Assembly: GCF_004297185.1 (NCBI RefSeq)
Contig: NZ_PGCL01000001.1
Location: forward strand, 699,691-763,690
Length of the DNA stretch: 64,000 nucleotides
Reading direction: 5' to 3'
From: Methanofollis fontis
Lineage (GTDB): Archaea > Halobacteriota > Methanomicrobia > Methanomicrobiales > Methanofollaceae
Part shown: in pieces, positions 4,609 to 28,936 of the stretch
How positions within the stretch are numbered: the stretch's first letter is position 1
How the letters are laid out: the number at the start of each line of letters is the position of its first letter
Notes under the pieces: model-generated
Database searches by the model: none
Told to the model about the DNA's origin: nothing
The model's input: the letters and a program-made list of their open reading frames with translations, nothing else
Position numbers and translations under genes: made by a program

Positions 4609-4628
4609 ATCCCCGACCATTGTCGCGT

Positions 4629-5263: not shown

Positions 5264-5266
5264 CAA

Positions 5267-5279
5267 CAAATATAAAGGT
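5267..5279 (+). promoter_or_regulatory. Probable TATA box of the ATP synthase operon
   Basis: AAATATAAAGG lies about 45 nt before the ahaH start at 5320. With archaeal spacing, transcription would begin near 5300 and leave a short leader containing the ribosome binding site GAGGAGGG just before the ATG. Confidence 0.5.
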
Positions 5280-5319
5280 AATTTTCATCAAATATTGTAA
5301 GCCGTGAGAGGAGGGTTGG

Positions 5320-7612: not shown

Positions 7613-7614
7613 TT

Positions 7615-7872: not shown

Positions 7873-7886
7873 GCACGGAGTGGACG

Positions 7887-8465: not shown

Positions 8466-8477
8466 GGAGGAATAGGC

Positions 8478-9533: not shown

Positions 9534-9839
9534 ATGGTGGAGATTGCAGTTATCGGAAGCGGCGATTTCGTCATCGGGTTTCGCCTTGCCGGTATCCAGA
9601 AGACGATTGCCGTTGAGGGCGAGGACAACCTCAGAGAGGCTGTCCACAAGGTCCTTGAGGACACCTCGGTCGGCATTCTGGTGCTCAGCAGCAGCGATAT
9701 GAACACGCTCCCCCTTCGGCTGCGGACCCGGCTCGAGGAGTCCGTTCGGCCGACGGTGATCGCGGTTGGCGAGGAGGAGGGAGGACTCTCCATGCGGGAG
9801 AGAATTAAGAGATCGGTCGGTGTTGATCTGTGGAAGTAA
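9534..9839 (+). CDS. ahaF: A-type ATP synthase subunit F
   Basis: 101 residues, small Rossmann-like rotor-shaft subunit that binds subunit D. The opening [19 protein letters not shown] and the later [16 protein letters not shown] are family hallmarks. It begins immediately after the ahaC stop and its end overlaps ahaA by 10 nt. Confidence 0.95.
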
Positions 9840-13635: not shown

Positions 13636-13652
13636 TTCTTCTCCTCTTTTTT
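13630..13652 (+). repeat. 23-nt direct repeat, copy 1 (end of ahaD)
   Basis: This 23-nt string, running from GCCTGATTC to the run of six T, contains the ahaD stop codon. An exact second copy is at 14793-14815. The two copies flank the TPR gene and its spacers, about 1.16 kb apart. Confidence 0.7.
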
Positions 13653-13662
13653 GTGTATTTTG
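13641..13662 (+). terminator. Pyrimidine-rich tract after ahaD, probable archaeal terminator
   Basis: CTCCTCTTTTTTGTGTATTTT follows the ahaD stop by a few bases. Archaeal RNA polymerase terminates at oligo-T tracts without needing a stem. The same pyrimidine string recurs at 14801-14815. Confidence 0.5.
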
Positions 13663-13785
13663 CCTGACTGTTGTGACCCCTCCGGGTGAGGGGATCGTCG
13701 ACGGTGTGTTCGATGGTGATGGATGCCTGGATGAAGGTCTGAGTCCTTTGTATTGCGGCAGTGTTGATGCGTTCTGAGCATCTCC

Positions 13786-14643
13786 TCAACTGATCTTTCT
13801 CAATGCAATCTCTTTGTTTTTCCTTGCATCGGCATCATTCGGGTCGATCTGGAGTGCCCGGTTGAAGCACACGAGCGCCTCGTCGTGGCGGCCGAGGTTT
13901 CCAAGCGCGACACCTTTTATGTTCCATGCGGCATTATTGTTCGGGTTGATCTCGAGCGCTCTGTCACAGCAGGTGATCGCCTCGTTGTGGCGGCCGAGGT
14001 CTCCAAGCGAACTACCTTTAGTGCTCCATGCGGTATGATCGTTCGGGTTGATCTCGAGCGCTCTGTCACAGCATACGATTGCCTCGTCGTAGCGGCCGAG
14101 AATTTTAAACGCGAGACCTTTGATCCCCCATGCGTATTCCATATTCGGGTCAATTTCAAATGCTCGTTCGGCGAGTTCGATCGCTTTATGGGGGTGATCC
14201 GGTATGCAACCGAGAGCTTCTTCAAGACATTGTACAGCATTTAATGTTCGCTTCTTCTCATTTTGTTTTGCGATCCATTGCAATACCTGGTCTCTGCCTT
14301 CTTTTGCTTCTGCATCATTCGGGTCGATCTGGAGTGCCCGGTCGAAGCAGGCGAGCGCATCGTCATGGCGACCTAACTTGATGAACGAAAGGCCTTTCAT
14401 ACTCCACAGTGGAATCTGCGGATCGATCGCGATCCCCCGGTCACAACATTGTATCGCCTCGTCGTAGCGGCCGAGTCTGGCGAGCAAGATGCCCTTTTTT
14501 CCCCACACAATTGCATCATTCGGGTCGATCTGGAGTGCCCGGTCAAAGCAGACGACCGCATCGTCGAAGCGGCCCATTTTATTAAACACGACACCCTCAT
14601 TATACCAGTCTACAGCGGTTTTCCCTTCATTTTTTCCTGGCAT
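13786..14643 (-). CDS. Tetratricopeptide-repeat protein
   Basis: 285 residues made almost entirely of 34-residue TPR units, about seven or eight. The consensus is (A)WGxKGxxLxxLGRYDEAIxCxDRALEIDPN, for example ALQIDPNDAIVWGKKGILLA, EIDPNMEYAWGIKGLAFK and EINPNNNAAWNIKGVALGNL. A charged non-repeat linker (LQWIAKQNEKKRTLNAVQCL) sits between two TPR blocks. There is no signal peptide, so it is probably a cytoplasmic protein-interaction scaffold. The near-identity of several units indicates recent internal duplication. It is transcribed alone, converging on ahaD and diverging from the tubulin-like cluster. It is bracketed by 23-nt direct repeats, so it may be a later insertion. GGGAG precedes the start. 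Confidence 0.88.
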   Translation of the reverse strand: MPGKNEGKTAVDWYNEGVVFNKMGRFDDAVVCFDRALQIDPNDAIVWGKKGILLARLGRYDEAIQCCDRGIAIDPQIPLWSMKGLSFIKLGRHDDALACFDRALQIDPNDAEAKEGRDQVLQWIAKQNEKKRTLNAVQCLEEALGCIPDHPHKAIELAERAFEIDPNMEYAWGIKGLAFKILGRYDEAIVCCDRALEINPNDHTAWSTKGSSLGDLGRHNEAITCCDRALEINPNNNAAWNIKGVALGNLGRHDEALVCFNRALQIDPNDADARKNKEIALRKIS

Positions 14644-14792
14644 GAATACATTCTCTCCCTTTCATGTATCCGCTACGATGAACAGCGGTTACGTCAACCG
14701 AAACCTCCATTGCGCCTATCGCTGCATGAAAATCCGATATTCTCGTATTGCCGTTCGGTTATTATAGTCCTATTCATTTGAAGTCGCCTGAT

Positions 14793-14815
14793 GCCTGATT
14801 CTTCTCCTCTTTTTT
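14793..14815 (+). repeat. 23-nt direct repeat, copy 2
   Basis: Exact copy of 13630-13652, including what is the ahaD stop codon in copy 1 and the run of six T. Here it is not attached to a gene end on the same strand. Confidence 0.7.
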
Positions 14816-15169
14816 CTCGAAGTCGCCTTTTATGTCGCGCCCTCTTGATGAGGTGAACGATGTGGTGGAATGCCGGACCGCCCGGTCGTTTGATGGATTG
14901 TTCCGGGGAGATTTAGATGGTCAGGATTCGATAAATGTTCACTGCATAAATTTAACCTGATTCTTTCCGTATCAGCCATGGATCGAGAGTGGTGATGCGA
15001 ATCCCATCCTGAAAGGGGGTTTTTCAGAGGAGAAAAAATAAAAATTTTCCCTAATACGCCATCTTTTCCTGAGCAGAAAAGGAGAGCAACGCATGCGATG
15101 AGAGGAAGTACGATGGATCAGTGCCGGAGACAGAGATCATCCGGGGTCTGGTGATTATGTAAATTATTT

Positions 15170-15215
15170 TCGATAAAAAAAACAAGATAGTATTCTTGAA
15201 TATTTTTTATATCGA
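15170..15215. repeat. Long imperfect inverted repeat upstream of the tubulin-like cluster
   Basis: Outer arms TCGATA / TATCGA, then A-rich / T-rich segments, then inner arms CAAGA / TCTTG around TAGTAT. The whole 46-nt element folds on itself. It ends about 40 nt upstream of the TATA-like element at 15255, a position suited to an operator or to termination of a minus-strand transcript. Confidence 0.5.
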
Positions 15216-15254
15216 CATTATAGTGTTCGATTTCACCGAAGGCAAATAATAATG

Positions 15255-15265
15255 CTTATATTTCC
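15255..15265 (+). promoter_or_regulatory. Probable TATA box of the tubulin-like cluster
   Basis: GCTTATATTTC is centred about 25 nt before the ATG at 15284, and no ribosome binding site precedes that ATG, so the first gene is probably translated from a leaderless mRNA. Confidence 0.45.
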
Positions 15266-15283
15266 ATGTGCGTATGATCTCTC

Positions 15284-16060
15284 ATGATTAAGGGAGATAT
15301 ACGTGGACTGAGGGCGTTTGGTATATTATTTTCCTTTCTTGTTCTGATTCTGGTTGGAAACGCAGCTGCGATGGATGTTGTTGTTCTTGACAGCACGATT
15401 GATGAAATCCATCCAGAAGGTGACATAGTTGAGTATACGCTCAAGATCAGTGGAGTTCAACCGCAGGTTTCAGTGATAGAACTTGAAACGGATCTACGAC
15501 CGTATGGTCAATCATTTTTATGGAACGTTACCGATCCTGGATTTCTGGAACTTCAGGATGGTCAACATCAATTTCAGGACCAATCGATCCAATTTGAGGT
15601 GAATAAGAGCGTCAACACTCCTGCTCTGATTCACGTCACGGGTCAGGTGCCACAGATTACCGAAATTGTTCAGTCCGAGGGACTTGTTATAACAAAAACC
15701 GATGCGCAGACGACCGGGTATACCCATTACAGGGTTCAATTTTTTGATGAAGACGGATTTGTCGTCGGAAATGCTTTCACTGAAGTATTTGATATCGAAA
15801 TTCCGGATGAAACGGACTTTTTCGATCGTTTGAGTTCTGTTCAGGATCCCATGCTGCGCAATCTTGTCATCGATCTGCATGACAAGGGGTTGAAATATGA
15901 GGCCAATACGCTGCTGGATTATTCGGATAAGAAACCACTGGGTGTTTCATTGCCCCTGGTTATCGTGATCCTCGTTGTTATCGGTGGAATTGCGCTGTTT
16001 GCTGGATACAGGATCGGGTATGCTCGCGGATACAATGCCAGCATCAATGATAATGATTGA
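15284..16060 (+). CDS. Membrane-anchored extracellular protein, first gene of tubulin-like cluster
   Basis: 258 residues, family not recognised. Signal peptide or anchor at residues 10-30 (FGILFSFLVLILVGNAAA). An extracellular beta-rich part follows (about 32-190), with the pattern of an immunoglobulin-like domain (IVEYTLKISGVQPQVSVIEL, YTHYRVQFFDEDGFVVG). Next is a short helical stalk (LSSVQDPMLRNLVIDLHDKG) and a C-terminal membrane helix at about 222-243 (SLPLVIVILVVIGGIALFAG). A short cytoplasmic tail ends the chain. The topology puts the main domain outside with only a tail inside. Twenty nt separate its stop from the first tubulin-like gene, which has its own strong GGAGG, so they are probably one operon. 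Base composition is visibly AT-richer than the ATP synthase genes. Confidence 0.8.
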   Translation: MIKGDIRGLRAFGILFSFLVLILVGNAAAMDVVVLDSTIDEIHPEGDIVEYTLKISGVQPQVSVIELETDLRPYGQSFLWNVTDPGFLELQDGQHQFQDQSIQFEVNKSVNTPALIHVTGQVPQITEIVQSEGLVITKTDAQTTGYTHYRVQFFDEDGFVVGNAFTEVFDIEIPDETDFFDRLSSVQDPMLRNLVIDLHDKGLKYEANTLLDYSDKKPLGVSLPLVIVILVVIGGIALFAGYRIGYARGYNASINDND

Positions 16061-16079
16061 ATTTTGACGGAGGTAAATA

Positions 16080-19000
16080 ATGGTTTCACAGGCATTTAAT
16101 TCCGAAAAAAAAGAGTTTCAGATGCCAAAGGATCTTTCGATCATTGCGGTCGGAGGGTGTGGAAAGAAACTCGTGTATCACCTTTGTGAACATGAGTGGT
16201 TTCTGAGAGATTATCTGAGTGAAAACCGGACATTGAGGATTTGTGTCCTTGATACTGATTCAAATCAGAGAAAAAATGACATTGAACGTGCAGATCATGT
16301 CAACAAGACCACTGAAGAAATGATGCGCCAGATGGGGGGGATGGGTGGCAACATTAATATGGAGTATTATTATCTCCCTGATCTGGCAAATGTCGGACGA
16401 ATATCCGGTCTTACCGGAAAATCCGTCATCGAGCAGGTGAAGAGCTGGAAAGGGGAACCCCATGCAGATGTCTGGTGGATGAATGATCCTGAGAGGGGAT
16501 TCGAGTTTTCGGATCTCAAATCCATCGATAGTAATATTATTGATGATTTTGGCGGCGGTGTCCATCGGAGACGTGCGATTTCCAAGGCAGTTTTTTATAA
16601 GGCGATCTCTCAGAGTGGGGATACGAATTTCCCCTCGTTCCCTGGTCAGGGCGATATCGCACTGGTCGTCGGTCTGGGCGGCGGCACCGGGTCGGGAATG
16701 TTCATCGATCTGGCCAGATACATCAAGGGGCTCTCCGGACCCACCCGGAAGATCTGGCTGTTCGGTGTGATGCCGGCGATTGTTGAAGGGGAAAAAGAAC
16801 AGTTGAATGCGGGGATTGCACTTTCTGAGATTGAATATCTCAATTTGAAAGGAGAGAAACTCTTTCATTATTGCATCCTCTCTTCTCTTGGACCGACGGG
16901 ATACAGGGATGGTGCAGACCGGAAAAAGGAGGTCCTGGACTACGACCATGCCTTCCCCTATCTTTTGATGAATGCATTCTATCTGCCGACTGCTGACATA
17001 TATGATATAATCGATGCACGAAAGGATTACTCGGGCTTTATTTTTGCAGATTCTCACGTCATCGAGTATCCTGTTGAAGAACTAAGGAATTTGAAGGCCG
17101 AATTTGAGAATGTGGTCCGGGAAATTACTGAACTTGGGAAAAACAGGAAACAGATCAATGAGAAAGTGCTGGAGATCCTGAATCAGATAGAGCACAAATA
17201 CCCTGATCAACTCATCGATGAGGTTGAAATCGTTACAACCGGTGAGGACCTGACGTTTGTGAAAGGGGAGATAGAAAAACTCGAGAAAGTCTGGAGCAAT
17301 GATATCCCGAAATTATTGAATTATCAGACATCTGTGGAGATTGATTATTATCTGAACAACAATCTGCCTGAAGATATCAGGAATCTCGATGAAATCAAAA
17401 CGTACGATAAATTGATCGAGTTTGTTGCACGATTGAAAAAGTCGATGGATACGGGCAGCAAACCTCTTGAAAACGAAGATGATAAGATTCTTTATTCAAG
17501 TATTACCGAGTATCTGGCCCAGATCGAACAACTGGCATTGCTGCAAAAGAGAATTCTTCGCATCAAAGAGCATGAACTGCGTGTTGTCCTGAAGAAAATT
17601 CTCTGGGGTGAAGAAGATCTGACCCATGTCATGAGCCAGGTTACATCAAAGTTCGAATCCCTGAAGAATGATGCCCTTACAAATGAAAGCAAAAAATCTT
17701 CCGCAATAGAAAAACGCGAACGATTGCAGCAAAAAGAGGCAGGTATCAGGGAGAGGATCAAATCCGCCTGTAATGATGCAGGGCGGCAGATTGATGAATA
17801 TGAGGGCCAATGCGATAAAATTCGATCGACCCGGAGCAGGGAAGAAGAACTGGCCAATGAATTTGAGAAGATGCACCTGAACCTGCAGGAACAGGTCACC
17901 GATCTGCTCTCGAAAAAACAGGCCGGGATCAATAAAAAAGCATGGTGTGTCAAGGCCGATTATGTAAAGATACAGGCATTGATCGATTCTTTCTCCCAGG
18001 AAATCGGGCAACCGGGAAAACTTGATTATCTGAAGGAATTTGCTGAAGCACTGGTCCTTTACTACTACTATGAGTACAGGAAGGAATCTGCTGAAAATAT
18101 CGGGCTGTTCGATAAGATACTTGGGAAGAAGCCTGATATGGCGATGATTGAAGCCAACATGACTTCAAAATTGAATAAAATGAAGGCGATCGCCGATCAG
18201 GAAAACGATAAATTACGTCTGAGAGAACCCCTTGATTTTGAGATTCTGGACAGGTTCGTATCGGACGAGATGACAGATGATCTCGAGTCTGAAAGAAAAA
18301 GGATTATTGAGACAATCCTCTCTGATCTCAACCTTGGTTCCGGAGATTATTCTGCTCTCCGCGATGCATTTGAGTGTGAAGGTACGCAGGAAATTATTGA
18401 TTTCCTGAAAGGGAGATTACTGGATCTGATAAATGAGAAGGAGCGGTTTGGAGAGGAAATTAATCAGACCTCCCGGGAAATCGATGCAGCCGAATCCACT
18501 ATCAACGCCCTTCAGAACACTCTGGCAACATTCTCTTTAATTGAGAATATCATTGAAGACACCCTGAAAGAGCGCAGATTGTACAATCTCCATGATTCGG
18601 GTCTGGAGACCAGCTTCGAAACCATCGATAAAAAGCGGCAGACCGGCGATACAACGATCCGGGATAAGTACCACACCCGGTATGGCGGTATCAATCCCGC
18701 CGTGTTGTCGTTGATTGCCGATGACTCGACCATGGGGGTGCTGGACTCAAAGGATGAAGGAAGGGAGGAACTCGATCGCGTTCTTGGCCTGGTCAAGGGA
18801 ACCTATCGGAACCTTGTGAATGAAGGGTTGCTGGGTGTCAAGAACTTTAATATCAGCTATGGCGCCTCGCATACCGATTCATGGAATTTTGAGAGGGCTG
18901 CCCTTGTGCTGTCGTCTCCTTCACAGTATATGACCGACAACATCTCGAATATCAACGAGGACATCTGCAGGACGATTTCAGGCGACCTCTCTCTCCAGCA

Positions 19001-19337
19001 GATGCATTATGCAAAGGTGGCGGCACATAATTACAGCAAACCCTGGGAAATCGGTCTCACGTTCTTTGCTGCTGCAAGCTTTTTCGACAATATCTCTCCA
19101 CTGATGACCGGTGGCGGCTACTGGACGAAATATGCGGATAACAGAAACAATATTCTTCATCATGTACTGTTTTTGCAGAACGGGCAGTATGTCGTCAGAA
19201 AGGACCTGTTGAGGCTGACTGACGCGGCTGAAATCGCCGATATGGAAAGAAATGAAGATGATCAGAGCAAAGGGGGAGCAAAAAGCCGTATTCTGGAGTT
19301 GTACGAGGAAAAAGATATCCGTGAGGCGGTTCGCTGA
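16080..19337 (+). CDS. Tubulin/FtsZ-superfamily protein with coiled-coil insertion (copy 1)
   Basis: 1085 residues; GGAGG 6 nt before the ATG. The N-terminal domain is a tubulin/FtsZ-type nucleotide-binding fold: DLSIIAVGGCGKKLVYHLCE (glycine loop at 25-30), then the tubulin signature GGGTGSGMFIDLA at 200-212 on the strand GDIALVVGL. Residues about 335-850 are largely charged helix with strong coiled-coil character. A hydrophobic aromatic block interrupts it (EALVLYYYYEYRKE, about 655). The C-terminal 220 residues are globular and contain SWNFERAALVLSSPSQY, KPWEIGLTFFAAASFFDN and NILHHVLFLQNGQYVVR (LHH at 1026-1028). All of these recur in the paralog at 24380. It has no signal peptide and is cytoplasmic. 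It resembles the Tubulin_2/FtsZ-like-1 group that Makarova and Koonin linked to a predicted membrane-remodelling system; that link is recalled, not searched. GTP binding and polymerisation are inference. Confidence 0.82.
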   Translation: MVSQAFNSEKKEFQMPKDLSIIAVGGCGKKLVYHLCEHEWFLRDYLSENRTLRICVLDTDSNQRKNDIERADHVNKTTEEMMRQMGGMGGNINMEYYYLPDLANVGRISGLTGKSVIEQVKSWKGEPHADVWWMNDPERGFEFSDLKSIDSNIIDDFGGGVHRRRAISKAVFYKAISQSGDTNFPSFPGQGDIALVVGLGGGTGSGMFIDLARYIKGLSGPTRKIWLFGVMPAIVEGEKEQLNAGIALSEIEYLNLKGEKLFHYCILSSLGPTGYRDGADRKKEVLDYDHAFPYLLMNAFYLPTADIYDIIDARKDYSGFIFADSHVIEYPVEELRNLKAEFENVVREITELGKNRKQINEKVLEILNQIEHKYPDQLIDEVEIVTTGEDLTFVKGEIEKLEKVWSNDIPKLLNYQTSVEIDYYLNNNLPEDIRNLDEIKTYDKLIEFVARLKKSMDTGSKPLENEDDKILYSSITEYLAQIEQLALLQKRILRIKEHELRVVLKKILWGEEDLTHVMSQVTSKFESLKNDALTNESKKSSAIEKRERLQQKEAGIRERIKSACNDAGRQIDEYEGQCDKIRSTRSREEELANEFEKMHLNLQEQVTDLLSKKQAGINKKAWCVKADYVKIQALIDSFSQEIGQPGKLDYLKEFAEALVLYYYYEYRKESAENIGLFDKILGKKPDMAMIEANMTSKLNKMKAIADQENDKLRLREPLDFEILDRFVSDEMTDDLESERKRIIETILSDLNLGSGDYSALRDAFECEGTQEIIDFLKGRLLDLINEKERFGEEINQTSREIDAAESTINALQNTLATFSLIENIIEDTLKERRLYNLHDSGLETSFETIDKKRQTGDTTIRDKYHTRYGGINPAVLSLIADDSTMGVLDSKDEGREELDRVLGLVKGTYRNLVNEGLLGVKNFNISYGASHTDSWNFERAALVLSSPSQYMTDNISNINEDICRTISGDLSLQQMHYAKVAAHNYSKPWEIGLTFFAAASFFDNISPLMTGGGYWTKYADNRNNILHHVLFLQNGQYVVRKDLLRLTDAAEIADMERNEDDQSKGGAKSRILELYEEKDIREAVR

Positions 19338-20881
19338 TGATTATCAACAACCGGAAAAGGCTGTTTGTCATGGTGGGGGCGATCATACTTGCCGTCATCG
19401 TGGCCCTCCTTTTTATCAATCTGTTCCAGATCTACTGGTTTATCGGTGCACCCTATGAGGTGAAACTTGCCATCGATCTACTCTGCGGGTTGTTCCTCGC
19501 CGTCTCTATCGGGATGCTATTTTCCTCTGATTCCCGTTTTAACGGTTTGTTATTTGGAATATTGTTCGGTTATGTTATCTGGCATTTCTTCCCGTATGGA
19601 TGTATCGTGCCTGAGGCCCTCGGGATGGGTTTTTTTCTCGGGATTGTTCTGGTGATTTTTGTTCTTCTCAGGAACCGGTTTGATATCCTGGCAACCAGTG
19701 CGAAGGTATTCCTGACGATTGCCTTTGCGGTGATTGTTGGGTATCTGCTCTCCAGTTTCAGTACCAAATCAGCGACCATGGTGCCGGATGCGACGGTTGC
19801 AATCGGAAAAATCACCGCTCAAAACGCCTTTTTTTATGGGAGCGGCATTCTTGTTGCGACAGTGTTTTTCATCGTCCTGATGTACTCCATTGTGGGTGTT
19901 AAGGGCTCGAACGTGTTTGTATTCGGTCCGAGGGGGGCCGGAAAGACATTTTTCCTCCTTGGTCTCTGGGGTCAGATGGCGAATATGGCACGAACCTTCC
20001 CTTCGCAGGTGATCATTTCTTCTGATCCAGAGGACCGGAAAAATCTCAGGCTCACCGATCTCTATGCAATGGTCAATGGTGGAAGAGGAGAGTGGAGGAG
20101 GACCGAATATTATAAACTCAGCATGTATGAGATCTTTTCGAAAAAATTCTTTATTTCCCCTGTTGTCTGGACGATTGTTGATTATGCGGGGGAATATTAT
20201 GACAAGGTCAATGAGAGAAATTATCAGGACTCGATCGAAGCCCTCAGCGAGGCCTTCGAGATGCCGGTGGATGAACTCGAAAAGAGGTCGGGCACCCTCG
20301 AATTTCTCAAAGAGATCGTGGATCACCACCTGGATAAGCTCTACGGGACCGGTCTTGCCCGGGCACTGAATATTTCGACGATGTTCAGTCATCTGGGACG
20401 CTCCGGAAAGGTGATATTTCTCATCGACGGTGAGAAACTCCTCACGCGTGAGGGGATGGCGGACCTTTCCCGTGAATTTGGCGACTATATCCAGACCCTG
20501 ATGGACCTGGAGGGGAGTGCCTGGTTCAAAATATTTGGCGGCAAGAAAAAGTATGCCCTTGTGGTGACGAAAACAGACATGCTTGTACAGAAACACCCCG
20601 AACTGCATGCTTTGATCAGCAAAAACGGTGATTTTTACTCTCTCTCTGATATCCCTGACCAATCTCCAGAAGCAGAACTCATTGAAGATACGATCTTCAA
20701 GATCCTGGAAAAAAACCTCTCGTTTAAGAGTCTTGTCAGTATGATGAACGACATTTCTGTCTCGTTTATCGCGGTGAGCGTGGACCCGACTGCAGAAGCG
20801 AATATTGCATCCGACGGAGAGCAGGCGCCCGGTCAGATTGTGCCGTGGAGATTCAATGAGGTGATTGGATTTGGCTCCTGA
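19337..20881 (+). CDS. Polytopic membrane protein with C-terminal GTPase-like P-loop domain
   Basis: 514 residues; the ATG shares one base with the stop of the tubulin-like gene (TGATG), so translation is coupled. Residues 1-190 hold six membrane helices (for example LFVMVGAIILAVIVALLFI, GMGFFLGIVLVIFVLL, GILVATVFFIVLMYSIVG). The cytoplasmic domain follows directly: G1/Walker A GPRGAGKT at 197-204, a G3-like VDYAGEYYD on the strand VVWTIVDYAG, the strand KVIFLIDGEKLL, and G4-like TKTD at 411-414 on the strand YALVVTKTD. A G5-like SFIAVSVDP precedes the end. TKxD argues for guanine specificity. It may correspond to the distinct GTPase reported next to FtsZ-like-1 genes. Tight coupling suggests it is the membrane anchor or regulator of the tubulin-like polymer. 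Confidence 0.8.
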   Translation: MIINNRKRLFVMVGAIILAVIVALLFINLFQIYWFIGAPYEVKLAIDLLCGLFLAVSIGMLFSSDSRFNGLLFGILFGYVIWHFFPYGCIVPEALGMGFFLGIVLVIFVLLRNRFDILATSAKVFLTIAFAVIVGYLLSSFSTKSATMVPDATVAIGKITAQNAFFYGSGILVATVFFIVLMYSIVGVKGSNVFVFGPRGAGKTFFLLGLWGQMANMARTFPSQVIISSDPEDRKNLRLTDLYAMVNGGRGEWRRTEYYKLSMYEIFSKKFFISPVVWTIVDYAGEYYDKVNERNYQDSIEALSEAFEMPVDELEKRSGTLEFLKEIVDHHLDKLYGTGLARALNISTMFSHLGRSGKVIFLIDGEKLLTREGMADLSREFGDYIQTLMDLEGSAWFKIFGGKKKYALVVTKTDMLVQKHPELHALISKNGDFYSLSDIPDQSPEAELIEDTIFKILEKNLSFKSLVSMMNDISVSFIAVSVDPTAEANIASDGEQAPGQIVPWRFNEVIGFGS

Positions 20882-20909
20882 GTGTGCTGTGAGGAATGGG
20901 GGTATCTGA

Positions 20910-22616
20910 ATGACCGTGAAATATGGATTATATGAACCGGACGGCAAGCATTATTCGGGTGAACTGAATCGCTACCATGATCGTGCCGTACTTCTGGCCG
21001 CAGGGAGGGTCGGCTTTTATTTCGAGTCGGATCGGGACAGGATCATTCTCGGTTCCGCAATCGATGTCCAGAAAAAAGGCAAGCGGCAGGATTTACACAT
21101 CTATTTCATGGAATGCCAGATTGAGTCATTTCAGGTGAGTGTTATCCGTGATTTTTATCTGAATGCCGTTGCATCTCTCCGGGACGCCGGATATGAAGTC
21201 CTCAATATCTGGGGAGATGAAAGGTTTGTTTCATCGCTCGACACCCTCACTCTGGGATATTCCGGTCAGTCCGGACCGGTGCTATCCTACCTTTCAGGCA
21301 AGATTGTTGCCCAGAAACCCTCGTACGCCTTCACAAAGGACTTTAAACGGGCGATGAGTCTGGTTTCCGGGGTCCTTGAAGTGATGCAACCGATTCTCTT
21401 TCTGGGGTATCGGTGTGCCGTCGGCAGGGATGCGATCGACCGGGAGAATCCCCCTGATCTCTCGGTCCTCCCGATGAAACCCTACAATCAGCATGCCGCC
21501 AATCTGGATTCCGGCCAGATCGATGATACGGATGCATCGACCTATCAACGATTCGGGAAGGTGTTGATCGATAATAGATCTTCTCTTTTTGGAAAAGAAC
21601 AGCGGATCGGGACAAAACAAAAATTGCTCAATGCTATTGAAGATACCATTAGAAGGGGATTAACTCCTTCAAAGAGACTTGATCATTATTCACGACTGGA
21701 TGAATTGAATATCCCCAGAACCTCCTCAAATACGATTGAAGATGCAGTAACAGCTGTGATTGAAAAGAACAATACAGCCTATCTGGAGCGCTATCTCTCC
21801 GGTAATTTCAATCAACGCGATTTTCAGAAGTATGTCTATGAACTGCCTGCACTGCAGTTCCTGGATTTCTTTACAAAGGCAAAAGAGACATTGCTGAAAA
21901 TGAAGACTGCAGATGGGAAAAAAATCTCAAACAATCTCTCGAACCATGCCAGACAACTCCAGACGGTCGCAAACCAGTTGAAAGAGAAACATGATCCCGA
22001 GATCGCTCCCCGGAAACCGGATAAAGACTCTCTCATGGATGAGAAATCCAATAGAAGGGGAGGTTTTGCGGGTGAGTTCAATCTAAAAAAGATCCTTTTA
22101 ATTGGCGGTATCATCGGACTGATTATTGCGATAGGAGTTGCCGTCACAATGTTCGCTCCCGGGATTTTTGGTGGTGACGGTCCGACCGATGGCACAGTCC
22201 CGGGGTTGAAGTCGGAAGCAGGGCCTGAAGAGCCAATAACGGTCCCATCCGATGACGGCAGGGTCAGACTGATATACTCAAATGATTCTGTCTCAATAAA
22301 CGGGGCCGGCCCGCTAAAAATTGTTCACACAGAGGGTGTACCGAAAATCGGAAATGGTGAATGGTTTAATTATGACGATTCGTACTACACCATCGAACCT
22401 GATGTCCGGTTTGATCCTCCAGCGGAGTTGATCTTTACCGTTGATGATAGAAATCCCGATCAGATCTATATTGGTCATAAGTCTTGTTCTGCCCTCAACT
22501 GGACCCGTGAAGACCCATCCATCGATGGTCAGGACCTCACTCTGACCATCCATGAATCAGGAATGTATGCATTATTTCTCGAGAATGTCACTGATGCACC
22601 TTCAGGGGGAGTATAA
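20910..22616 (+). CDS. Single-pass protein of the tubulin-like cluster, large cytoplasmic part and small ectodomain
   Basis: 568 residues, family not recognised. There is no signal peptide. Residues 1-390 appear cytoplasmic: a beta-rich start (VKYGLYEPDGKHYSGELNRY), a globular domain with conserved-looking SLDTLTLGYSGQSGPVLSY, then a helical region (SNHARQLQTVANQLKEKHDP). One membrane helix lies at about 395-418 (KILLIGGIIGLIIAIGVAV). About 150 residues follow outside, beta-rich, ending in LTLTIHESGMYALFLENVT. That end resembles the last strands of Ig-like surface domains such as PGF-pre-PGF (SGFSYFAI). It lies 28 nt after the GTPase gene. Its topology could transmit a signal between the cytoplasmic NTPases and the cell surface. 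A link to the GTPase-associated protein families is possible but untested. Confidence 0.75.
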   Translation: MTVKYGLYEPDGKHYSGELNRYHDRAVLLAAGRVGFYFESDRDRIILGSAIDVQKKGKRQDLHIYFMECQIESFQVSVIRDFYLNAVASLRDAGYEVLNIWGDERFVSSLDTLTLGYSGQSGPVLSYLSGKIVAQKPSYAFTKDFKRAMSLVSGVLEVMQPILFLGYRCAVGRDAIDRENPPDLSVLPMKPYNQHAANLDSGQIDDTDASTYQRFGKVLIDNRSSLFGKEQRIGTKQKLLNAIEDTIRRGLTPSKRLDHYSRLDELNIPRTSSNTIEDAVTAVIEKNNTAYLERYLSGNFNQRDFQKYVYELPALQFLDFFTKAKETLLKMKTADGKKISNNLSNHARQLQTVANQLKEKHDPEIAPRKPDKDSLMDEKSNRRGGFAGEFNLKKILLIGGIIGLIIAIGVAVTMFAPGIFGGDGPTDGTVPGLKSEAGPEEPITVPSDDGRVRLIYSNDSVSINGAGPLKIVHTEGVPKIGNGEWFNYDDSYYTIEPDVRFDPPAELIFTVDDRNPDQIYIGHKSCSALNWTREDPSIDGQDLTLTIHESGMYALFLENVTDAPSGGV

Positions 22617-22639
22617 CTCAATTTTTTGAGGTCGATGGT

Positions 22640-24160
22640 ATGGGCTCTGAATGGCGTTTTCTGAGGGGTGCACTCTGTCTTCTTCTTGTATTGTCCTGTG
22701 CGTATTCTGTGTCTGCAGAAGAAGACGAACAGTTGAAATTTGGTGAGATTGCCGTTTCTTCAACCCCTGAAGGCGCGGCTATCTATGTGGACGGTAAAGA
22801 TACGGGTTATGTGACCAATCGCCGCATTATGGATCTGATGCCGGGAGTGCATACGGTACAGGTGACCTATCCAGGATACCGCGATGATGAGAAGATAGTG
22901 GACGTGATCGGCGGCGAGCGGGTTTTTGTCAATTTTGAACTCAAACGAAAGATCGGTTCCCTGACGGTGTCAACAGAACCCGAGGGAGCTAAGATCTATG
23001 TTGACGGTTACTGTAAGGGTACATCGGATACGCTTGTTTCGAGTATTCCGGAGGGAACCCATACGGTCATGCTCTCACTTGATGGCTACAGATCATATTC
23101 AAAACAGCTGCAGGTGGAAGACGGCGACACCCTCCATATGTCGCACACCTTCGAACCCCTGCCGACAACAGGCACTGTCGTCGTCAACTGCACGCCGGAT
23201 GGGGCGTGGGTGTATATTGACGATGTCTGTTATGGTGTTTCCAGGACAACGATTTCCGATCTCGATCCCGGCAGCCATGAGATCAGATTAAAAAAATATG
23301 GATATTATAACTGGTCTTCCCCGTTTGATATCAGAGCAGGGGAAATTTTAGAATTTAACAATACCATGGAGGCGAAGAACGGCACTGTCGCCATATTCTC
23401 GTTCCCGGTTCGGGGAGAGATCTTTATTGACGGTGTTTTTTTCGGATCCGGACCATATGAAGGGGGATGCCCGCAGGGTGAACACCTGCTGGAAGTGAAG
23501 GCCCCGGGATTTGAGGAGTACGCGGATCGGATTCAGGTACCATACGACCCGATCAGTGTTCCCGTCACTCTGAACCCCCTGGCGCCGGCCGCCATCGTGG
23601 AGGCCGAAGAAAAAATTGAGGTAAACCGAGTTTTCAACCCGAAAAATGCTGAAATGGAACTTGATAGCGCCAGAGGACTCTTATTGGAGGAGAAATATCA
23701 TGAGGCATATCTCAGCGCACTGAATGCGTCGAGATGGGCGGAGGATGTCGACGGGGACGGTGTTCCCAATAGTTTTGATTTCTGGACGGCCATCACAAAT
23801 GAGGCCGTCTATGCGGCACCTTTTGTATTGTTTGTCATGATTGGAGGTATGGTTGGATTTGACTGGAGGCGATGCAGGATCAGACCGGATGTGGATCTCT
23901 GGCTCGATGAAATGGGACCTGACGGTACCTGGATTGTTCATGTGACTCCTTCAGTGAACCGTGGGTATTATCTCACCATGCTCTGCACCGTCTACCTTGA
24001 TGATGACATAAAAGAGAGAATTGTAGCTCCCGGCAAACGGGAGGTGAATCTCGGACATATCCCGCCAGGCGTCCATCGTATCCGTGCGGTGGTAGACGTC
24101 AAGCAGCATCGGTACGGGCGCTCGGAGGTATCGAAGTCGATTGAGGTTGAGGTCTCATAA
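22640..24160 (+). CDS. PEGA-repeat surface protein with membrane anchor
   Basis: 506 residues. A signal peptide (about 1-26, GALCLLLVLSCAYSVSA) precedes four PEGA repeats at about 35-102, 105-173, 177-244 and 247-313; each has the form VxSxPEGAxIYVDGxxxG...PGxHTVxVxxxGY. Next come a charged helix with an aspartate-rich calcium-binding-type loop (DVDGDGVPNSFDF, about 362-374) and a membrane helix at about 390-410. The C-terminal domain of about 95 residues (WIVHVTPSVNRGYYLTMLC) should be cytoplasmic. PEGA domains are common in archaeal surface proteins and probably bind cell-envelope components. GAGGT lies 7 nt before the ATG and 23 nt separate it from the previous gene. It supplies an extracellular contact for the tubulin-like system. 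Confidence 0.88.
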   Translation: MGSEWRFLRGALCLLLVLSCAYSVSAEEDEQLKFGEIAVSSTPEGAAIYVDGKDTGYVTNRRIMDLMPGVHTVQVTYPGYRDDEKIVDVIGGERVFVNFELKRKIGSLTVSTEPEGAKIYVDGYCKGTSDTLVSSIPEGTHTVMLSLDGYRSYSKQLQVEDGDTLHMSHTFEPLPTTGTVVVNCTPDGAWVYIDDVCYGVSRTTISDLDPGSHEIRLKKYGYYNWSSPFDIRAGEILEFNNTMEAKNGTVAIFSFPVRGEIFIDGVFFGSGPYEGGCPQGEHLLEVKAPGFEEYADRIQVPYDPISVPVTLNPLAPAAIVEAEEKIEVNRVFNPKNAEMELDSARGLLLEEKYHEAYLSALNASRWAEDVDGDGVPNSFDFWTAITNEAVYAAPFVLFVMIGGMVGFDWRRCRIRPDVDLWLDEMGPDGTWIVHVTPSVNRGYYLTMLCTVYLDDDIKERIVAPGKREVNLGHIPPGVHRIRAVVDVKQHRYGRSEVSKSIEVEVS

Positions 24161-24379
24161 TCACCAGTACCTTCCTTTTTTCCACCCTCCCCGTGTCCGG
24201 TCAATCTCTCCCTGAGGAAACTCTATGGATTGTCTGCCCGGGCAATTATAATTCTTCATTTTTTAATCGATCGATAATACTATCATTGTTATGATCATAT
24301 GTGGATATATGCTGGAAGAAAGGATTATCAGAACGTTTTTGACTCCCTGTTTAGAAGGAGGTCCCCGGAAACTGTCTGA
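24161..24379 (+). promoter_or_regulatory. 219-nt spacer with candidate promoter for the second tubulin-like gene
   Basis: AT-rich spacer holding a T-tract, the palindrome ATCGATCGAT (about 24266), an inverted repeat ATCAT-TGTT-ATGAT (about 24283-24296) and a TATA-like GGATATATGC (about 24303). A strong GAAGGAGG at 24354-24361 is 18 nt from the GTG at 24380, too far for a normal ribosome binding site, so the true start may differ. Confidence 0.35.
24170..24188 (+). terminator. T-rich tract after the PEGA gene, possible terminator
   Basis: CCTTCCTTTTTTCCACCC follows the stop at 24160. With TATA-like elements further on (24304-24311), it suggests that the second tubulin-like gene can be transcribed separately. 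Confidence 0.35.
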
Positions 24380-27300
24380 GTGGCGGTGGTATGTGTGACA
24401 GACCATAATGACCCGTCCATGGTGATGGCGAGGGTTCCTGATAATCTGACCATTGTCGGACTGGGTGGATTTGGAAAAAATGTTGTATTTTCCCTTTCTG
24501 AGCAGGAGTGGTTGCTGGATCATTTTCTGGGAAAAGGGAGATCGTTACGGCTCATTGGTATTGATACCGATATTCAGGAAAAGCAGCGTGATTTCAATAG
24601 ACTAAATTCATATATCGATTCAATTTCGAAAATGAAATCCCTAAAAGGGTCAGATGGTGGCGATATATCCGTTCATTATTACTGTCTGCCTGATAATCCT
24701 GTTTTCAGAACGAAATCCACTATCATTGATGGAAGTAGCGATTTGTCGGAGAGCATTGACCGGGACAATGACCATTCAGTGAACAATCCTTCAGATCCGG
24801 ATCCCGTGAACGCCTATCATTCAGTCGTTAATGACGTGTGCGAAGGAAAATATGATTTTTCCGGCGGAGTGTCCAGACAAAGGGCAATCGGAAAATTGAC
24901 CCTCTCCGGTGTTCTGGAATCTGATCCCGATTTCACCACGGCGATCTTCGCCGGGTACGGACCGGTTGCGATCGTTGCAGCACTCGGCGGGGGGACGGGT
25001 TCGGGGATGTTCATCGACATTGCGCGGGAGATTGGATCTGCAACCGGTCGAAAAATCTGGTTCTTTGGCATCGTCCCCTCTCAGGAAGAAGGTGAGATAG
25101 AACAGTTCAATGCCATCGTTGCCCTCACCGAACTTGAATATTCCAATGTCCTCGGTGAACCGATCTTTGATCATACTGTCCTTGCCGATATTACGCCTAC
25201 GAAATATGCAAACGAATATGATCCGAGTGATAGAATTATCCGGAATTTTGATGCATCATTCAGTTATCTGTTACTCAATGCTCTTGCTCTTCCTGAAGAA
25301 GTAATAGGTCCTGGTGTCCATACTCTGACTGAATATTCTTCAATTATTTCTGCAGATGCGCATGTTTTACGCTATCCCATAGGGTCATACCTCGAATTGA
25401 ACAGGAGGGCGGAAGAACTGCTGAAATCGTTTGAAGCATTGTTTCGGGAGTATGCGCGCCAATTTGAAGCAAACAACGAATGTTACACGTCATTGTCCTC
25501 GAATATGGAGCGCATGGAGACGATGTACCGTGAATTTTTTGTGGAGGGAGAAAACACTGAAGATTCTGAGGGGGCCTCCAGATATGTGCTCCATATGGTG
25601 GAGGGTGTTTTCAATCTTCTTGATTGTGAATGTGTTCGGCATCACCGGTACACCGTACTGGACGCGATTTCTCTGTCGTTCAGACAAATGATTTCCGTCG
25701 AGGGCAATGAAGAGAACGGGTCTGATCGGTATCAGAAGCTCCTTGATACCTTATTATCAATAGAGGAAATCTTGAGCGCGTATGAAGATACGATAATTTC
25801 TCCTGGTGAAAAAAAGATCCTGGACCTCATTGTGGATATATTCACGCACCTGAAATTATTGGCCGACATTCAGGGTAAAATTCTACGTATACGAGATACT
25901 GATGTCCGTAATCTTCTCCTGAATGGGCTACGTGGAGTAACAGGCGGGAAAGAATCAGTTGCTTCTCTGAAGGAAAATATCTTCATCCTTCAGGCCCGGC
26001 TGGAAGAATATGAAAAAGCAATCCGGGAATATACGTCCAGACAGGCTGAATTTGAAAAACAACGCTCCGATGATCTTTCAGATGTTGAATTGCATTGCAG
26101 GGAATTGAAAGAGAGTGTACAGGCCTATGTTTCACGTCGTGAGGTCCTCCTGGAGGCTGCGAGGAAAGAGAAGGACATTTCACTGCGTTTTAATGAACTG
26201 ATGGCACGGCTACAGAACAGATGTAATCGTGCGGAAGAAAAGAATGCCCCCTGGATCGGTATTGATCGATGGATCGAAGACGCCGATATCGACTCTCTCC
26301 ATTCAGAAATTGAATCGCTCTCCAATTTGACGGGAACCGATCTGAAATATCTGGAAAAAGTGGCTGAAATGGCCGTTCATTATTATTATGATGAATATGG
26401 GGTCCGTTTTGTCCGCAATGCAGGGATTTTCAGCAAGATGCTGGGGCACCTTCCCCATCCGGAGGTACTGTCCAGGGAACGTGATGAGAACCTGAATACG
26501 ATTCGTGCAATTGTCAGTGTGGAAGAGGATGTGTTCCAGGTAACTGAGGATCCATTCGGGCTGGTCCTCTCCCCTCAATTGGTGACGGAGCGATTGCACC
26601 ATGAACTTGACTCTGCCGGCCAGGAAATTTTGAATTCACTTGTTTTCGAGTATCATCTCAATGATGAAGAGCGAGAAAAGGTATACGATACCCTGAATCA
26701 GGGGAGCAGCATGGCCATTCTCGTCTCAATCCGGGCACTTCTCGACGATATCATGGAACAAAGAAAAGGGTATGCGTCGGAAATTGATTCATGTACACGT
26801 GAAATACGTGAAAAAACTGAAATTTATGATGGTCTGCGATCTCAACTGGCATTTTATCGGGATGCCGCCGATCTGATCCATTTAACCGGTAATATTCTTC
26901 CAATTTCTAAACCGGATACAGCACATTATGATGAGAGTGCGGAACGGTATAATGAATCATACAGGAATGTATCTGCAACTCAGGTCGATCCCTATTATTC
27001 ATGTTGCGGTGCGGACAATCACTCCGTTCTTCCAGATCTGACGGAAAGATCTGATCTCGGGGGATTTGATCTGACGGAAGAAGGAAGGGAAGAAGTGTTG
27101 AGTATCGTTGATGCGGTAAGCATGAAGTATCCGGACCTGATCGACGAGAAAATTCTCGGCATCAATGGTTTTTCATATAAATACGCAATGAACCTCACCG
27201 ACAACTGGCATATGGATCGCCGACTCTGGCATTATGACCGTGCGACTCTTGTTGTTTCGTCTCCCTCTGCCTATCTCCTGAACAATGTCGGTGAAAAGGG

Positions 27301-27670
27301 TCGTGATTTCAGTAAAAATATGACGATGAAGCTGCTTCTCGAACGGATACATGATGCATGTGTCGTCGGGCAGAATCTGTCACACCCATGGGAGACTGCT
27401 ATCTGTTTCTATGCTGCATCCGGTTTTCTTGATAATCTCAGATTGTTTGATCGGGAGGGGTCTCCCTGGAAATTCTACCAGCAAAACCAGGATATGATCC
27501 TGCATCATGCGGCATTCCTTCACGCCGGTCGATATATTGTCAGGGATAGGGTTCTGGACCCCACTCTTGCTGCCTCTATTGCGGACTCCGGTGGATCAGG
27601 TGAACAATCAGGGGATAATGATCGGAAAAATCCGGTTCTTGATCTCTACACGGAAAAGGTTCTCAATTAA
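24380..27670 (+). CDS. Tubulin/FtsZ-superfamily protein with coiled-coil insertion (copy 2)
   Basis: 1096 residues from GTG 24380; ATGs at 24419 or 24425 (MARVPDNLTIVGL) align better with the paralog and may be the real start. Domain order matches the protein at 16080: nucleotide fold with IVGLGGFGKNVVFSL and the signature GGGTGSGMFIDIA (GGGTGSG at 203-209), a long charged coiled-coil middle, the aromatic block AVHYYYDEYGVRF, and the C-terminal globular domain. That domain carries YDRATLVVSSPSAY, HPWETAICFYAASGFLDN and MILHHAAFLHAGRYIVR (LHH at 1041-1043). The signature and the last 200 residues are much better conserved between the two than the coiled coil. Two paralogs in one locus suggest a hetero-polymer or two specialised filaments. 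It is the last gene of the cluster on this strand. Confidence 0.8.
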   Translation: MAVVCVTDHNDPSMVMARVPDNLTIVGLGGFGKNVVFSLSEQEWLLDHFLGKGRSLRLIGIDTDIQEKQRDFNRLNSYIDSISKMKSLKGSDGGDISVHYYCLPDNPVFRTKSTIIDGSSDLSESIDRDNDHSVNNPSDPDPVNAYHSVVNDVCEGKYDFSGGVSRQRAIGKLTLSGVLESDPDFTTAIFAGYGPVAIVAALGGGTGSGMFIDIAREIGSATGRKIWFFGIVPSQEEGEIEQFNAIVALTELEYSNVLGEPIFDHTVLADITPTKYANEYDPSDRIIRNFDASFSYLLLNALALPEEVIGPGVHTLTEYSSIISADAHVLRYPIGSYLELNRRAEELLKSFEALFREYARQFEANNECYTSLSSNMERMETMYREFFVEGENTEDSEGASRYVLHMVEGVFNLLDCECVRHHRYTVLDAISLSFRQMISVEGNEENGSDRYQKLLDTLLSIEEILSAYEDTIISPGEKKILDLIVDIFTHLKLLADIQGKILRIRDTDVRNLLLNGLRGVTGGKESVASLKENIFILQARLEEYEKAIREYTSRQAEFEKQRSDDLSDVELHCRELKESVQAYVSRREVLLEAARKEKDISLRFNELMARLQNRCNRAEEKNAPWIGIDRWIEDADIDSLHSEIESLSNLTGTDLKYLEKVAEMAVHYYYDEYGVRFVRNAGIFSKMLGHLPHPEVLSRERDENLNTIRAIVSVEEDVFQVTEDPFGLVLSPQLVTERLHHELDSAGQEILNSLVFEYHLNDEEREKVYDTLNQGSSMAILVSIRALLDDIMEQRKGYASEIDSCTREIREKTEIYDGLRSQLAFYRDAADLIHLTGNILPISKPDTAHYDESAERYNESYRNVSATQVDPYYSCCGADNHSVLPDLTERSDLGGFDLTEEGREEVLSIVDAVSMKYPDLIDEKILGINGFSYKYAMNLTDNWHMDRRLWHYDRATLVVSSPSAYLLNNVGEKGRDFSKNMTMKLLLERIHDACVVGQNLSHPWETAICFYAASGFLDNLRLFDREGSPWKFYQQNQDMILHHAAFLHAGRYIVRDRVLDPTLAASIADSGGSGEQSGDNDRKNPVLDLYTEKVLN

Positions 27671-27871
27671 TGTATAAACCGAATTGGGGTGGATGATACA
27701 GGATTATTCGGGCGTTTCGGAAATGTGTCCCGGGATTCGAGCAACCCTCGACACTTCATTATTTGCGACCTGAGCAGTGCCTGATGCTCCCCCTCCTCTG
27801 TTCTGCCATGATTGTGGTGTATTCAGGTCTTCTGGCAGGCACCGGTCCGGAAATATGGGAGATCCGGATTA

Positions 27872-28936
27872 TTATAGCATTTTGCCCAGATAGATCTTGA
27901 GGACGATGAGCGTGACAGGGAACAATATCGACATGATCAGTTTCATTGCAATATCGATCTTAAATGGATACAATCTCAAATTTCTATATTCATTGTAGGT
28001 GTTCTTGATTTTTGACAGCTCATTGAAGGATATGAGTTTTTGAATGGGATCAGAGTGATTCTCTCCTATCTCCGCTGATTTTTGCTTAAACTGGTTTCCC
28101 AGTGTCTCTAACTTCTCCCATCGAATTCTATGGGCCGTCCTGTTCACCTGTGCAGTGGGGTAAATAAATGATATCGCAATCAGGATCGGATAGATTGAAA
28201 CGAAACAGTATATTGCGAGTGCAATGGGCGGGATCGATTTTGCAATCTGAAACAACCACGGGAAGAAGAGTGCCGCTGTCGCTGCCAAGATAGTCGTTCC
28301 TATGGCGAATTTGCCGATACAGAACATTCCCCCAACTTCATCCGGGTGGAGGGGGTCGATGTTGATTTCTTTATGCGATATTTCATATACGATCTGTTGT
28401 GTTTCTATTACGTCAGTTACACCGGAGGAGATCAGGTAGGCAATCCATCCGATTGCACATGTATATATGATGAAAAATGGATCGAAGAGAGTGGTTATGC
28501 CACTTCCCACCAGATATTGGTCTGTGCAGAACAGTGAACCTGTAAGATATATGCTATAATCAACTATGAGAAAAAAAGTGAAAACCAAATAAAAATTCTT
28601 CTGATACCGTTTGATCGATCTTTCCTTCAGATCGTTGATAAAATTGTGCTCCGCTACGATATGTTCGCAGTTCTTGAAAAATTGTATCAGATGTTTCCGC
28701 TCATAGTACCATAAAATCCACGGCCCAATATTTATCCACACAATCGCTAGGATGTACCCAATTAGATAGTCGTTCGAGATCTGATCCGCCCGCAACGCCC
28801 AGAAGAGGATGAATAGCATATCCGGGATCAGACCGAATTTCACGATGCTGGAGAGCAGTGGGTTATGAATTCTGATCGGGACGTCAGATTCGATCACTCT
28901 GCTGATGAATGAACATTTATCCTTTGATTCTTCCAT
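27872..28936 (-). CDS. Polytopic membrane protein of unknown function
   Basis: 354 residues from ATG 28936, chosen because AGGAGAGG lies 6 nt upstream; the frame is open further (to 29008) but that part lies inside the preceding gene. About eight hydrophobic segments are visible (for example FGLIPDMLFILFWAL, IGYILAIVWINIGPWILWYY, IGTTILAATAALFFPWLF, LALAIYCFVSIYPILIAIS). A soluble helical part of about 70 residues (LETLGNQFKQKSAEIGENHS) comes before the last helix. I recognise no family. Its start overlaps the stop of the FAD-enzyme gene by 20 nt, so they form an operon. Composition is AT-rich like the tubulin-like cluster. Confidence 0.7.
   Translation of the reverse strand: MEESKDKCSFISRVIESDVPIRIHNPLLSSIVKFGLIPDMLFILFWALRADQISNDYLIGYILAIVWINIGPWILWYYERKHLIQFFKNCEHIVAEHNFINDLKERSIKRYQKNFYLVFTFFLIVDYSIYLTGSLFCTDQYLVGSGITTLFDPFFIIYTCAIGWIAYLISSGVTDVIETQQIVYEISHKEINIDPLHPDEVGGMFCIGKFAIGTTILAATAALFFPWLFQIAKSIPPIALAIYCFVSIYPILIAISFIYPTAQVNRTAHRIRWEKLETLGNQFKQKSAEIGENHSDPIQKLISFNELSKIKNTYNEYRNLRLYPFKIDIAMKLIMSILFPVTLIVLKIYLGKML

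Follow-up and report, generated by a model that had tools for sequence, protein, structure and literature searches.

Background

FtsZ-like 1 (FtsZl1) proteins were defined together with vWA, GTPase, kinase and OmpA partners and were predicted to act in membrane remodelling (Makarova and Koonin 2010, PMC2875224). Archaeal members were already covered in that paper, in which the linked GTPases of bacteria are typically not membrane-associated, in contrast to those of archaea, and the linkage to vWA and OmpA genes is frequent, not constant. The T6-H7 elements could not be placed in these proteins, and the option that they do not polymerise was raised. The DO-GTPase/GAP1 systems, which occur in a few archaea, combine tubulin, vWA, Hsp70 and kinase themes with PEGA ectodomains; their GTPases, in company with tubulins and PEGA-type ectodomains, were located close to the membrane, and a role in biological conflict was proposed (Kaur 2020, PMC7159879). 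DO-GTPases have also been linked to membrane stress (PMC11237479), and Tubulin_2, the Pfam model of the FtsZ-like-1 family (PF13809), is listed in Borgs (PMC9879509). No experimental study of a Tubulin_2 protein was found among the titles listed in searches of the open-licence literature. Here we describe a locus at 15284-27670 of a 64,000-nucleotide stretch of the Methanofollis fontis genome (contig NZ_PGCL01000001.1, positions 699,691 to 763,690; 'the window'), in which five genes form a conserved cluster around a tubulin-like protein of this family and a membrane protein with GTPase motifs, and a sixth gene encodes a second, diverged tubulin-like protein.

The host genome is 2.36 Mb and 98.5% complete. 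An initial annotation had read the locus as six genes in one direction, and six open reading frames (ORFs) on the + strand do fill it (lengths in amino acids, aa):

15284-16060, +, gene 1: 258 aa; surface-type protein with a signal-like N-terminus, an ectodomain at about 31-220, a helix at 221-239 and a short tail
16080-19337, +, gene 2: 1085 aa; FtsZ-like-1 (Tubulin_2) protein with an N-terminal tubulin-like domain, a long charged middle and a conserved C-terminal block
19337-20881, +, gene 3: 514 aa; membrane protein with GTPase motifs
20910-22616, +, gene 4: 568 aa; likely cytoplasmic N-terminal domain, helix at 395-413, ectodomain
22640-24160, +, gene 5: 506 aa; signal-like N-terminus, four PEGA domains, a DVDGDGVPN motif, a helix at 389-407 and a likely cytoplasmic tail
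24380-27670, +, gene 6: 1096 aa, GTG start; second, diverged FtsZ-like-1 protein

Results

Conservation of the cluster

Whether the six genes are conserved neighbours had been named as a test of the initial reading. As a unit of six they do not hold in relatives; genes 1-5, however, keep the same order and strand in all seven other loci of the five-gene type (L006, L052-L057), and smaller forms of the cluster extend into a wider group. The spacing gives the same division. Genes 1 and 2 are 19 nt apart, genes 2 and 3 overlap by 1 nt, and 28 and 23 nt separate genes 3 from 4 and 4 from 5, whereas 219 nt lie between genes 5 and 6, so that the tight coupling claimed for the locus (overlaps or spacings below 30 nt) applies to genes 1-5 only.

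Among 41 relatives, counting the host genome, the GTPase was found in 15, and Tubulin_2 exceeded its cut-off in exactly those 15; a linked membrane GTPase was seen for gene 3 and in 15 of the 15 relatives. A three-gene form, consisting of gene 1, the tubulin and the GTPase, is present at seven loci of the genus (L058-L064) and as a second copy in the host genome (L005). Gene 1 and the tubulin were found in all eight of these loci and the GTPase in six by ORF picking and in the other two by coordinates. Three genes skipped by the ORF pick (the GTPase of L059, that of L061, and the gene 1 of L092) were placed beside the tubulin by whole-genome searches. The second host triad (L005, contig C2, 9008-14360) encodes proteins of 255, 1057 and 472 aa and is nearer to the other triads of the genus than to the window copy.

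The survey was extended to a sample of 294 genomes of the phylum. The GTPase profile matched 23 of them, 19 strongly and four distantly; the gene 1 profile matched 21, ie the same 19 and two weak ones; and the gene 4 profile matched 17, comprising 15 of the 19 and two weak ones. Tubulin_2 was found in 68 genomes, which include all 19 with strong matches to genes 1 and 3, and many of its matches outside the 19 are in frames of about 900 aa of family f10. Eleven of the 19 match by construction since the alignments of genes 1 and 3 contain rows from them. The eight genomes of family f8 count as independent finds where genes 1 and 3 are concerned; for gene 4 they do not, as its alignment includes them. 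In the f8 loci the tubulin, the GTPase and a transmembrane (TM) protein are adjacent in 8/8, and gene 1 is present in seven by ORF picking and in eight by profile. Four more distant loci (L095-L098) retain the tubulin, the GTPase and a TM protein. Carboxypeptidase-regulatory or PEGA-like repeats occur in two (L095, L096) of the three TM proteins scanned (L095, L096, L097), and at another locus, L087, a surface-type part beside the tubulin/GTPase pair has a PKD domain. The parts, order, conservation and co-occurrence of genes 1-5 are thus plain from the genomes compared, and on the same comparison the core of the cluster is a triad of surface-type protein, tubulin-like protein and membrane GTPase.

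The tubulin-like proteins

Genes 2 and 6 had been called large tubulin/FtsZ-superfamily proteins. Both score above the Pfam cut-off of 27 bits for Tubulin_2 (43.3 and 42.3 bits, respectively), which confirms the call. The PF00091 Tubulin model gave 26.3 and 27.6 bits, both below its cut-off of 33; the NCBI ftsZ model gave 14.3 of 295.2 bits for gene 6 and no match for gene 2; and no FtsZ or tubulin C-terminal domain was matched in either protein by the Pfam and NCBI models. The glycine motif GGGTGSG is present in both, and variants of this T4 loop occur in a few relatives (for example GGGTGGG in L057, GGGTGAG in L088 and L090). Two elements of gene 2 were located on an alignment of 66 rows, made from 63 of 112 candidate proteins, near-identical ones having been removed, and three sequences of the host genome:

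16548-16589, +: FGGGVHRRRAISKA block, residues 157-170; arginine-rich, near-invariant and family-specific, just N-terminal of the glycine motif
16677-16697, +: GGGTGSG (T4-type) motif, residues 200-206

At 108 alignment positions, gaps not counted, a single residue makes up 85% or more of the column. These positions fall mainly in the N-terminal domain (G25, G26, G28, K29, D58, the GGVxRRRAxSKA block, T4, D210, N243, E250, E252 and Y253), and others are found in the C-terminal block (W989, H1027, H1028, R1040). Median identity is 49% in the N-terminal domain and 24% in the middle region. This middle (residues 330-870) is charged, with 35% DEKR and 8 prolines in gene 2 and 31% and 9 in gene 6, and the family profile matches many known coiled-coil chains among the PDB sequences across it. 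Both observations would fit the extended coiled coil that, along with a helical C-terminal domain, characterises FtsZ-like 1.

A profile of residues 1-345 matched 16 short tubulins of related genomes, which we take to be CetZ-like, with E 4.6e-10. N243 is aligned there to the asparagine that opens a NAARSL stretch. Our reading, from this alignment, is that the N243 region corresponds to the start of H7, which had been left unplaced in PMC2875224. When residues 190-216, which hold T4, were masked, the match fell to E 0.0025 over 30 columns, compared to 0.27-0.86 for five control profiles. On these comparisons the assignment to the tubulin superfamily is sound, with modest support outside T4.

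The membrane GTPase

Gene 3 had been described as a six-helix membrane protein with a GTPase-like domain. The GTPase motifs are there, C-terminal of the helices: a P-loop GPRGAGKT (197-204), DYAGEYY (from 282), VIFLIDG, and TKTD (from 411). The hydropathy scan called only five separate helices, all inside residues 9-194; a weak sixth is inferred because an N-in start and a cytoplasmic GTPase domain require an even number. The motif set of the DO-GTPases (P-loop, DxxGE with a conserved Glu, and (N/T)KxD) is complete in gene 3. Three-gene loci of the genus have Ser, Lys or Arg in place of the Glu of DxAGE.

The Pfam model DO-GTPase2 (PF19993) gave 15.2 bits for gene 3, under its cut-off of 27, and matched 14/14 members of the gene 3 alignment, the window copy included, at E values up to 1 (best 1.7e-5). 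A gene 3 profile compared with three authentic DO-GTPases (clusters L112 and L113) gave E 1.7e-4 and a probability of 50%, against E values of 0.067-0.69 for seven other profiles; with the full-length profile the figures were 2e-4 and 46%. We read this as a real but distant kinship to the DO-GTPases. The association of a tubulin-like protein with a GTPase, which the initial annotation had taken from the FtsZ-like-1 prediction, stands as far as linkage goes; motifs and weak profile similarity make the DO-GTPases the likelier home of the enzyme itself.

Surface-type and membrane partners

By the hydropathy scan genes 1, 4 and 5 are each single-pass, in agreement with the two single-pass proteins with ectodomains (genes 1 and 4) recorded earlier. 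Gene 1 has hydrophobic stretches at 12-30 (signal-like) and 221-239; no Pfam family was over its cut-off, and 16 sequences of its family were aligned. Gene 4 has a single stretch at 395-413, and since KK directly precedes it the protein is likely N-in/C-out. The four-repeat PEGA protein also holds, with four PEGA stretches matched in gene 5 at E 2.1e-56. Its hydrophobic stretches are at 7-25, which is signal-like, and at 389-407; DWRRCRIRP comes directly after the second and makes a cytoplasmic tail likely.

The gene 4 family of the five-gene loci is homologous to the protein that follows the GTPase in the f8 loci (profile E 7.3e-21). A haloarchaeal-type gene occupies the same position after the GTPase and was considered as a homologue of gene 4, with weak profile comparisons (best E 0.0052, probabilities 0.5-7%). 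At the three-gene loci L058 and L060 the ORFs after the GTPase, of 180 and 173 aa, did not match gene 4, and the gene 4 profile found nothing in four genomes with three-gene loci of the genus (G003, G005, G006, G008). Gene 4 was also considered as a GAP1, which it seemed to resemble. The Pfam scan of eight relatives and ten further proteins, eight of them encoded after a GTPase gene, was negative, and profile comparison with two true GAP1s gave a probability of 0.1%, a weak test with two GAP1 sequences only; a search of plasmids for further GAP1 sequences gave no match. The candidate was dropped.

Gene 6 and the history of the tubulins

Genes 2 and 6 are 28% identical. The comparison of conserved positions covered 63, with M1 and P16 set aside, and gene 6 retains 53 of them, including the T1 and T4 glycines, K29, D58, D210, N243, E250 and E252; W132 and W133 are missing. 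In the 40 other relatives and the 11 other genomes of the genus, some of which are incomplete, no match exceeded 37% identity; the genome that carries L006, the closest five-gene locus, had none over 32%. One metagenome protein, P0103, has 75% identity to gene 6. Its longest contig has 66,263 bases, as has that of P0123, a relative of gene 4, so that the two are probably on the same contig.

A tree was built from 31 tubulin rows, without those of L057, L088 and L090, which vary the filter motif GGG(T/S)G(S/T)G. In it gene 2 clusters with L006, and the three-gene form of the genus with f8. Gene 6 groups with P0103; the branch that leads to them leaves an unresolved base and measures 2.17 changes per column, and their position is unsure because the branches are long. 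Judged by sequence, then, gene 6 is a rare, deeply diverged second tubulin, and it is genes 1-5 that belong together by conservation. In the host lineage gene 6 is likely to supply a second subunit of the assembly. As a diverged second copy it offers a natural example of how one tubulin gene turns into two.

Locus layout and flanking sequence

Short elements were read by eye upstream of genes 1 and 6:

15256-15263, +: ttatattt, TATA-like, 20 nt upstream of the gene 1 start codon
24303-24311, +: TATA-like sequence within the 219-nt gap upstream of gene 6
24353-24362, +: AGAAGGAGGT, ribosome-site-like, downstream of the TATA-like sequence of the gap and before gene 6

The position of the first would fit a leaderless transcript. 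No RNA family was over threshold in 13600-28000.

Upstream of the locus lie genes of an A-type ATPase, presumably for subunits A, B and D, with one TPR gene in between. A-type ATPase genes are also upstream in two of the seven other five-gene loci (L055 and L056; about 55%, 61% and 35-36% identity), and no such match was present in the fetched flanks of the remaining five. These neighbours, common to the window, L055 and L056, suggest that the window copy descended vertically. Downstream of gene 6, on the - strand (27872-29008), is a gene for a hydrophobic protein of 378 aa, for which Pfam gave no match at E values up to 1. Elsewhere in the window are a protein of 1414 aa (38256-42500), likely a surface protein, that combines NosD/beta-helix repeats with a PKD domain, and a T2SSF (type II secretion F-like) membrane protein (2642-4585), possibly part of a pilus system.

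Discussion

Possible function

A tubulin/GTPase/surface unit is favoured because genes 1-5 keep their order in 7/7 loci, because the GTPase and Tubulin_2 coincide in 15/41 relatives, and because genes 1 and 3, by their strong matches, coincide in 19/294 genomes, each of which also has Tubulin_2. We read genes 1-5, with nearly even confidence, as a conserved cluster built on the triad, in which a tubulin-like scaffold assembles at the inner face of the membrane under a receptor-switched membrane GTPase. This presumes the topologies given above, GTP binding and contact among the products of genes 1-5, all of which we infer. Gene 1 and the PEGA protein of gene 5 would touch the cell envelope or something outside the cell. 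Through their helices and tails both would report their state to gene 3, the membrane switch, and also to the domain that gene 4 has in the cytoplasm; the switch, in one of its nucleotide states, would recruit or nucleate gene 2. The long middle and conserved C-terminal block of gene 2 would tether the assembly to the membrane, and possible outputs are membrane bending or stiffening, sealing of damage, vesicles or killing of the cell. Nothing observed points to secretion in particular, one of the functions suggested initially.

This reading is also supported by the recurrence of surface-type parts in different forms beside the tubulin/GTPase pair (L087, L095, L096), by the resemblance of the gene 3 motifs to those of DO-GTPases, which PMC7159879 locates close to the membrane with tubulins, and by the nucleotide-site residues that genes 2 and 6 keep. 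A bolder and rather doubtful version is an archaeal receptor-gated cytoskeleton, in which surface receptors, some of them PEGA-bearing, would act through a membrane DO-GTPase-like switch on a giant coiled-coil tubulin polymer beneath the membrane, with gene 6 as its second subunit in the host lineage.

Several observations weigh against the scaffold under a receptor-switched GTPase. The evidence for a tubulin fold beyond the T4 region is weak, as the masked comparison indicates. Among PDB sequences gene 2 alone gave FtsZ matches at a weak E of 0.015, and the family profile found FtsZ (0.0011) and an Asgard tubulin (0.0061) amid many coiled-coil matches, some of them better; gene 3 matched no GTPase there. 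PMC9871819 treats Tubulin_2 proteins as divergent and as having a separate history, and leaves them aside. Four genomes (G060, G113, G256, G283) have Tubulin_2 in frames of 1083-1191 aa with no gene 3 match at E 1e-5, and no relative of gene 1 was found in the distant loci L095-L098. GAP1 is a constant partner of the DO-GTPases in their systems; with its model GAP1-M (PF20014) at E 0.05, the tubulin/GTPase loci of the 294 genomes gave no match. Gene 6 may be no more than a neighbour.

A system of biological conflict, ie immunity or self-killing, was considered as an alternative. The ectodomains or gene 4 would sense an invader or rival, and the GTPase would trigger tubulin assembly, by which the invader is contained or the cell is killed. 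The DO-GTPase-like motifs of gene 3 are in keeping with this, as are the tubulin, vWA, PEGA and two-tubulin themes of DO-GTPase systems in PMC7159879 and the scattered presence in 23 of 294 genomes. Relatives of the tubulin were also found on four archaeal plasmids, three of which were read. Two of the three, both haloarchaeal (L100, L101), have Hsp70 and vWA genes close to the tubulin-like gene, with GrpE too on one, a further point for conflict; on the third, a gene with a pilin domain lies upstream and one with an S-layer domain downstream. However, GAP1 was not found at the locus, and no nuclease, protease or other killing domain was over its Pfam cut-off in the six genes. The PADLOC defence models gave a mads_8 match over the P-loop region of gene 3 (E 3.3e-4) and a 36-residue match in gene 2 (E 9.2e-4), too short and weak for membership in a defence system to be claimed. 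Its position beside the A-type ATPase genes, found at two of the seven other loci too, makes the window copy look vertically inherited, not mobile. We think a conflict system unlikely.

The second alternative is the machine for constitutive membrane remodelling or vesicle formation that Makarova and Koonin themselves predicted (PMC2875224), in which polymerisation of the tubulin bends the membrane and the surface parts merely anchor it. The several membrane-spanning partners would suit such a machine. That an additional GTPase is always present suggests that the system is regulated and the surface parts do more than anchor; Pfam gave no match to a membrane-bending domain; and Tubulin_2 is below its cut-off in three of the 12 genomes of the genus (G002, G004 and G007, the last 88% complete), so that it is dispensable in these. 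This account, too, seems improbable. Weaker still is the idea that the tubulin-like proteins do not polymerise and are GTP-binding scaffolds or coiled-coil spacers that hold membrane proteins together: the T6-H7 elements that were not placed in PMC2875224, the unmatched FtsZ/tubulin C-terminal domain and the divergent middle speak for it, but nucleotide-site residues and N243, aligned to the start region of H7, are kept in most of the 66 sequences, and we hold it very doubtful.

Methanosarcina acetivorans can be genetically modified. It served as a control genome and matches Tubulin_2, so that the function of the large tubulins is open to experiment.

Comparison with known systems

The initial annotation saw the locus as an archaeal variant that had not been characterised. 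For the core this does not stand, since archaeal members are already in PMC2875224, which also implies that the GTPases of archaea are membrane-associated. With FtsZl1 as described there the locus shares the tubulin family, a linked GTPase that is membrane-associated in archaea, and further membrane proteins beside it. It differs in having no vWA or OmpA gene (the absence noted initially was confirmed among the eight proteins scanned at the locus) and in its constant gene 1, gene 4 and PEGA partners and second tubulin. Gene 1 or gene 4 may equal families A1-A2 of that paper.

To the DO-GTPase/GAP1-N2 systems of PMC7159879 the likeness lies in GTPase motifs that include DxAGE, a tubulin with a coiled coil, which is probable for the window proteins (two copies in firmicutes), TM helices in the GTPase, and PEGA or beta-sandwich ectodomains. 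In contrast, GAP1 and a fibronectin-III protein were not found at the window locus, where no GASH or fibronectin-III repeat protein was matched by Pfam in the six genes, and DO-GTPase2 was below its cut-off. An authentic DO-GTPase/GAP1/Hsp70 cluster is present in the same genus (L113 of G006, 160-11006), with related GTPase motifs. Its GTPase has no membrane helices, and it has GAP1, two Hsp70-like genes and a large protein of 1018 aa between; no tubulin gene was recognised in it. By eye, one of its two Hsp70-like genes has a vWA-like tail. CetZ and FtsZ share GGGTGSG and the neighbouring strand and helix with genes 2 and 6, but are of about 390 aa and do not have the long middle region.

The FtsZ-like-1 remodelling prediction of 2010 and the DO-GTPase conflict prediction of 2020 seem to meet in this locus, since the partner GTPase of FtsZ-like-1 looks like a distant cousin of the DO-GTPases. 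If that is true, both predicted systems would belong to one class, and the compact three-gene archaeal form would be a small version of it to test. Makarova and Koonin had in large part predicted the triad in 2010; what is added is the constant surface-type partner, the extension by gene 4 and the PEGA protein, the diverged second tubulin, and the distant kinship of the GTPase to the DO-GTPases.

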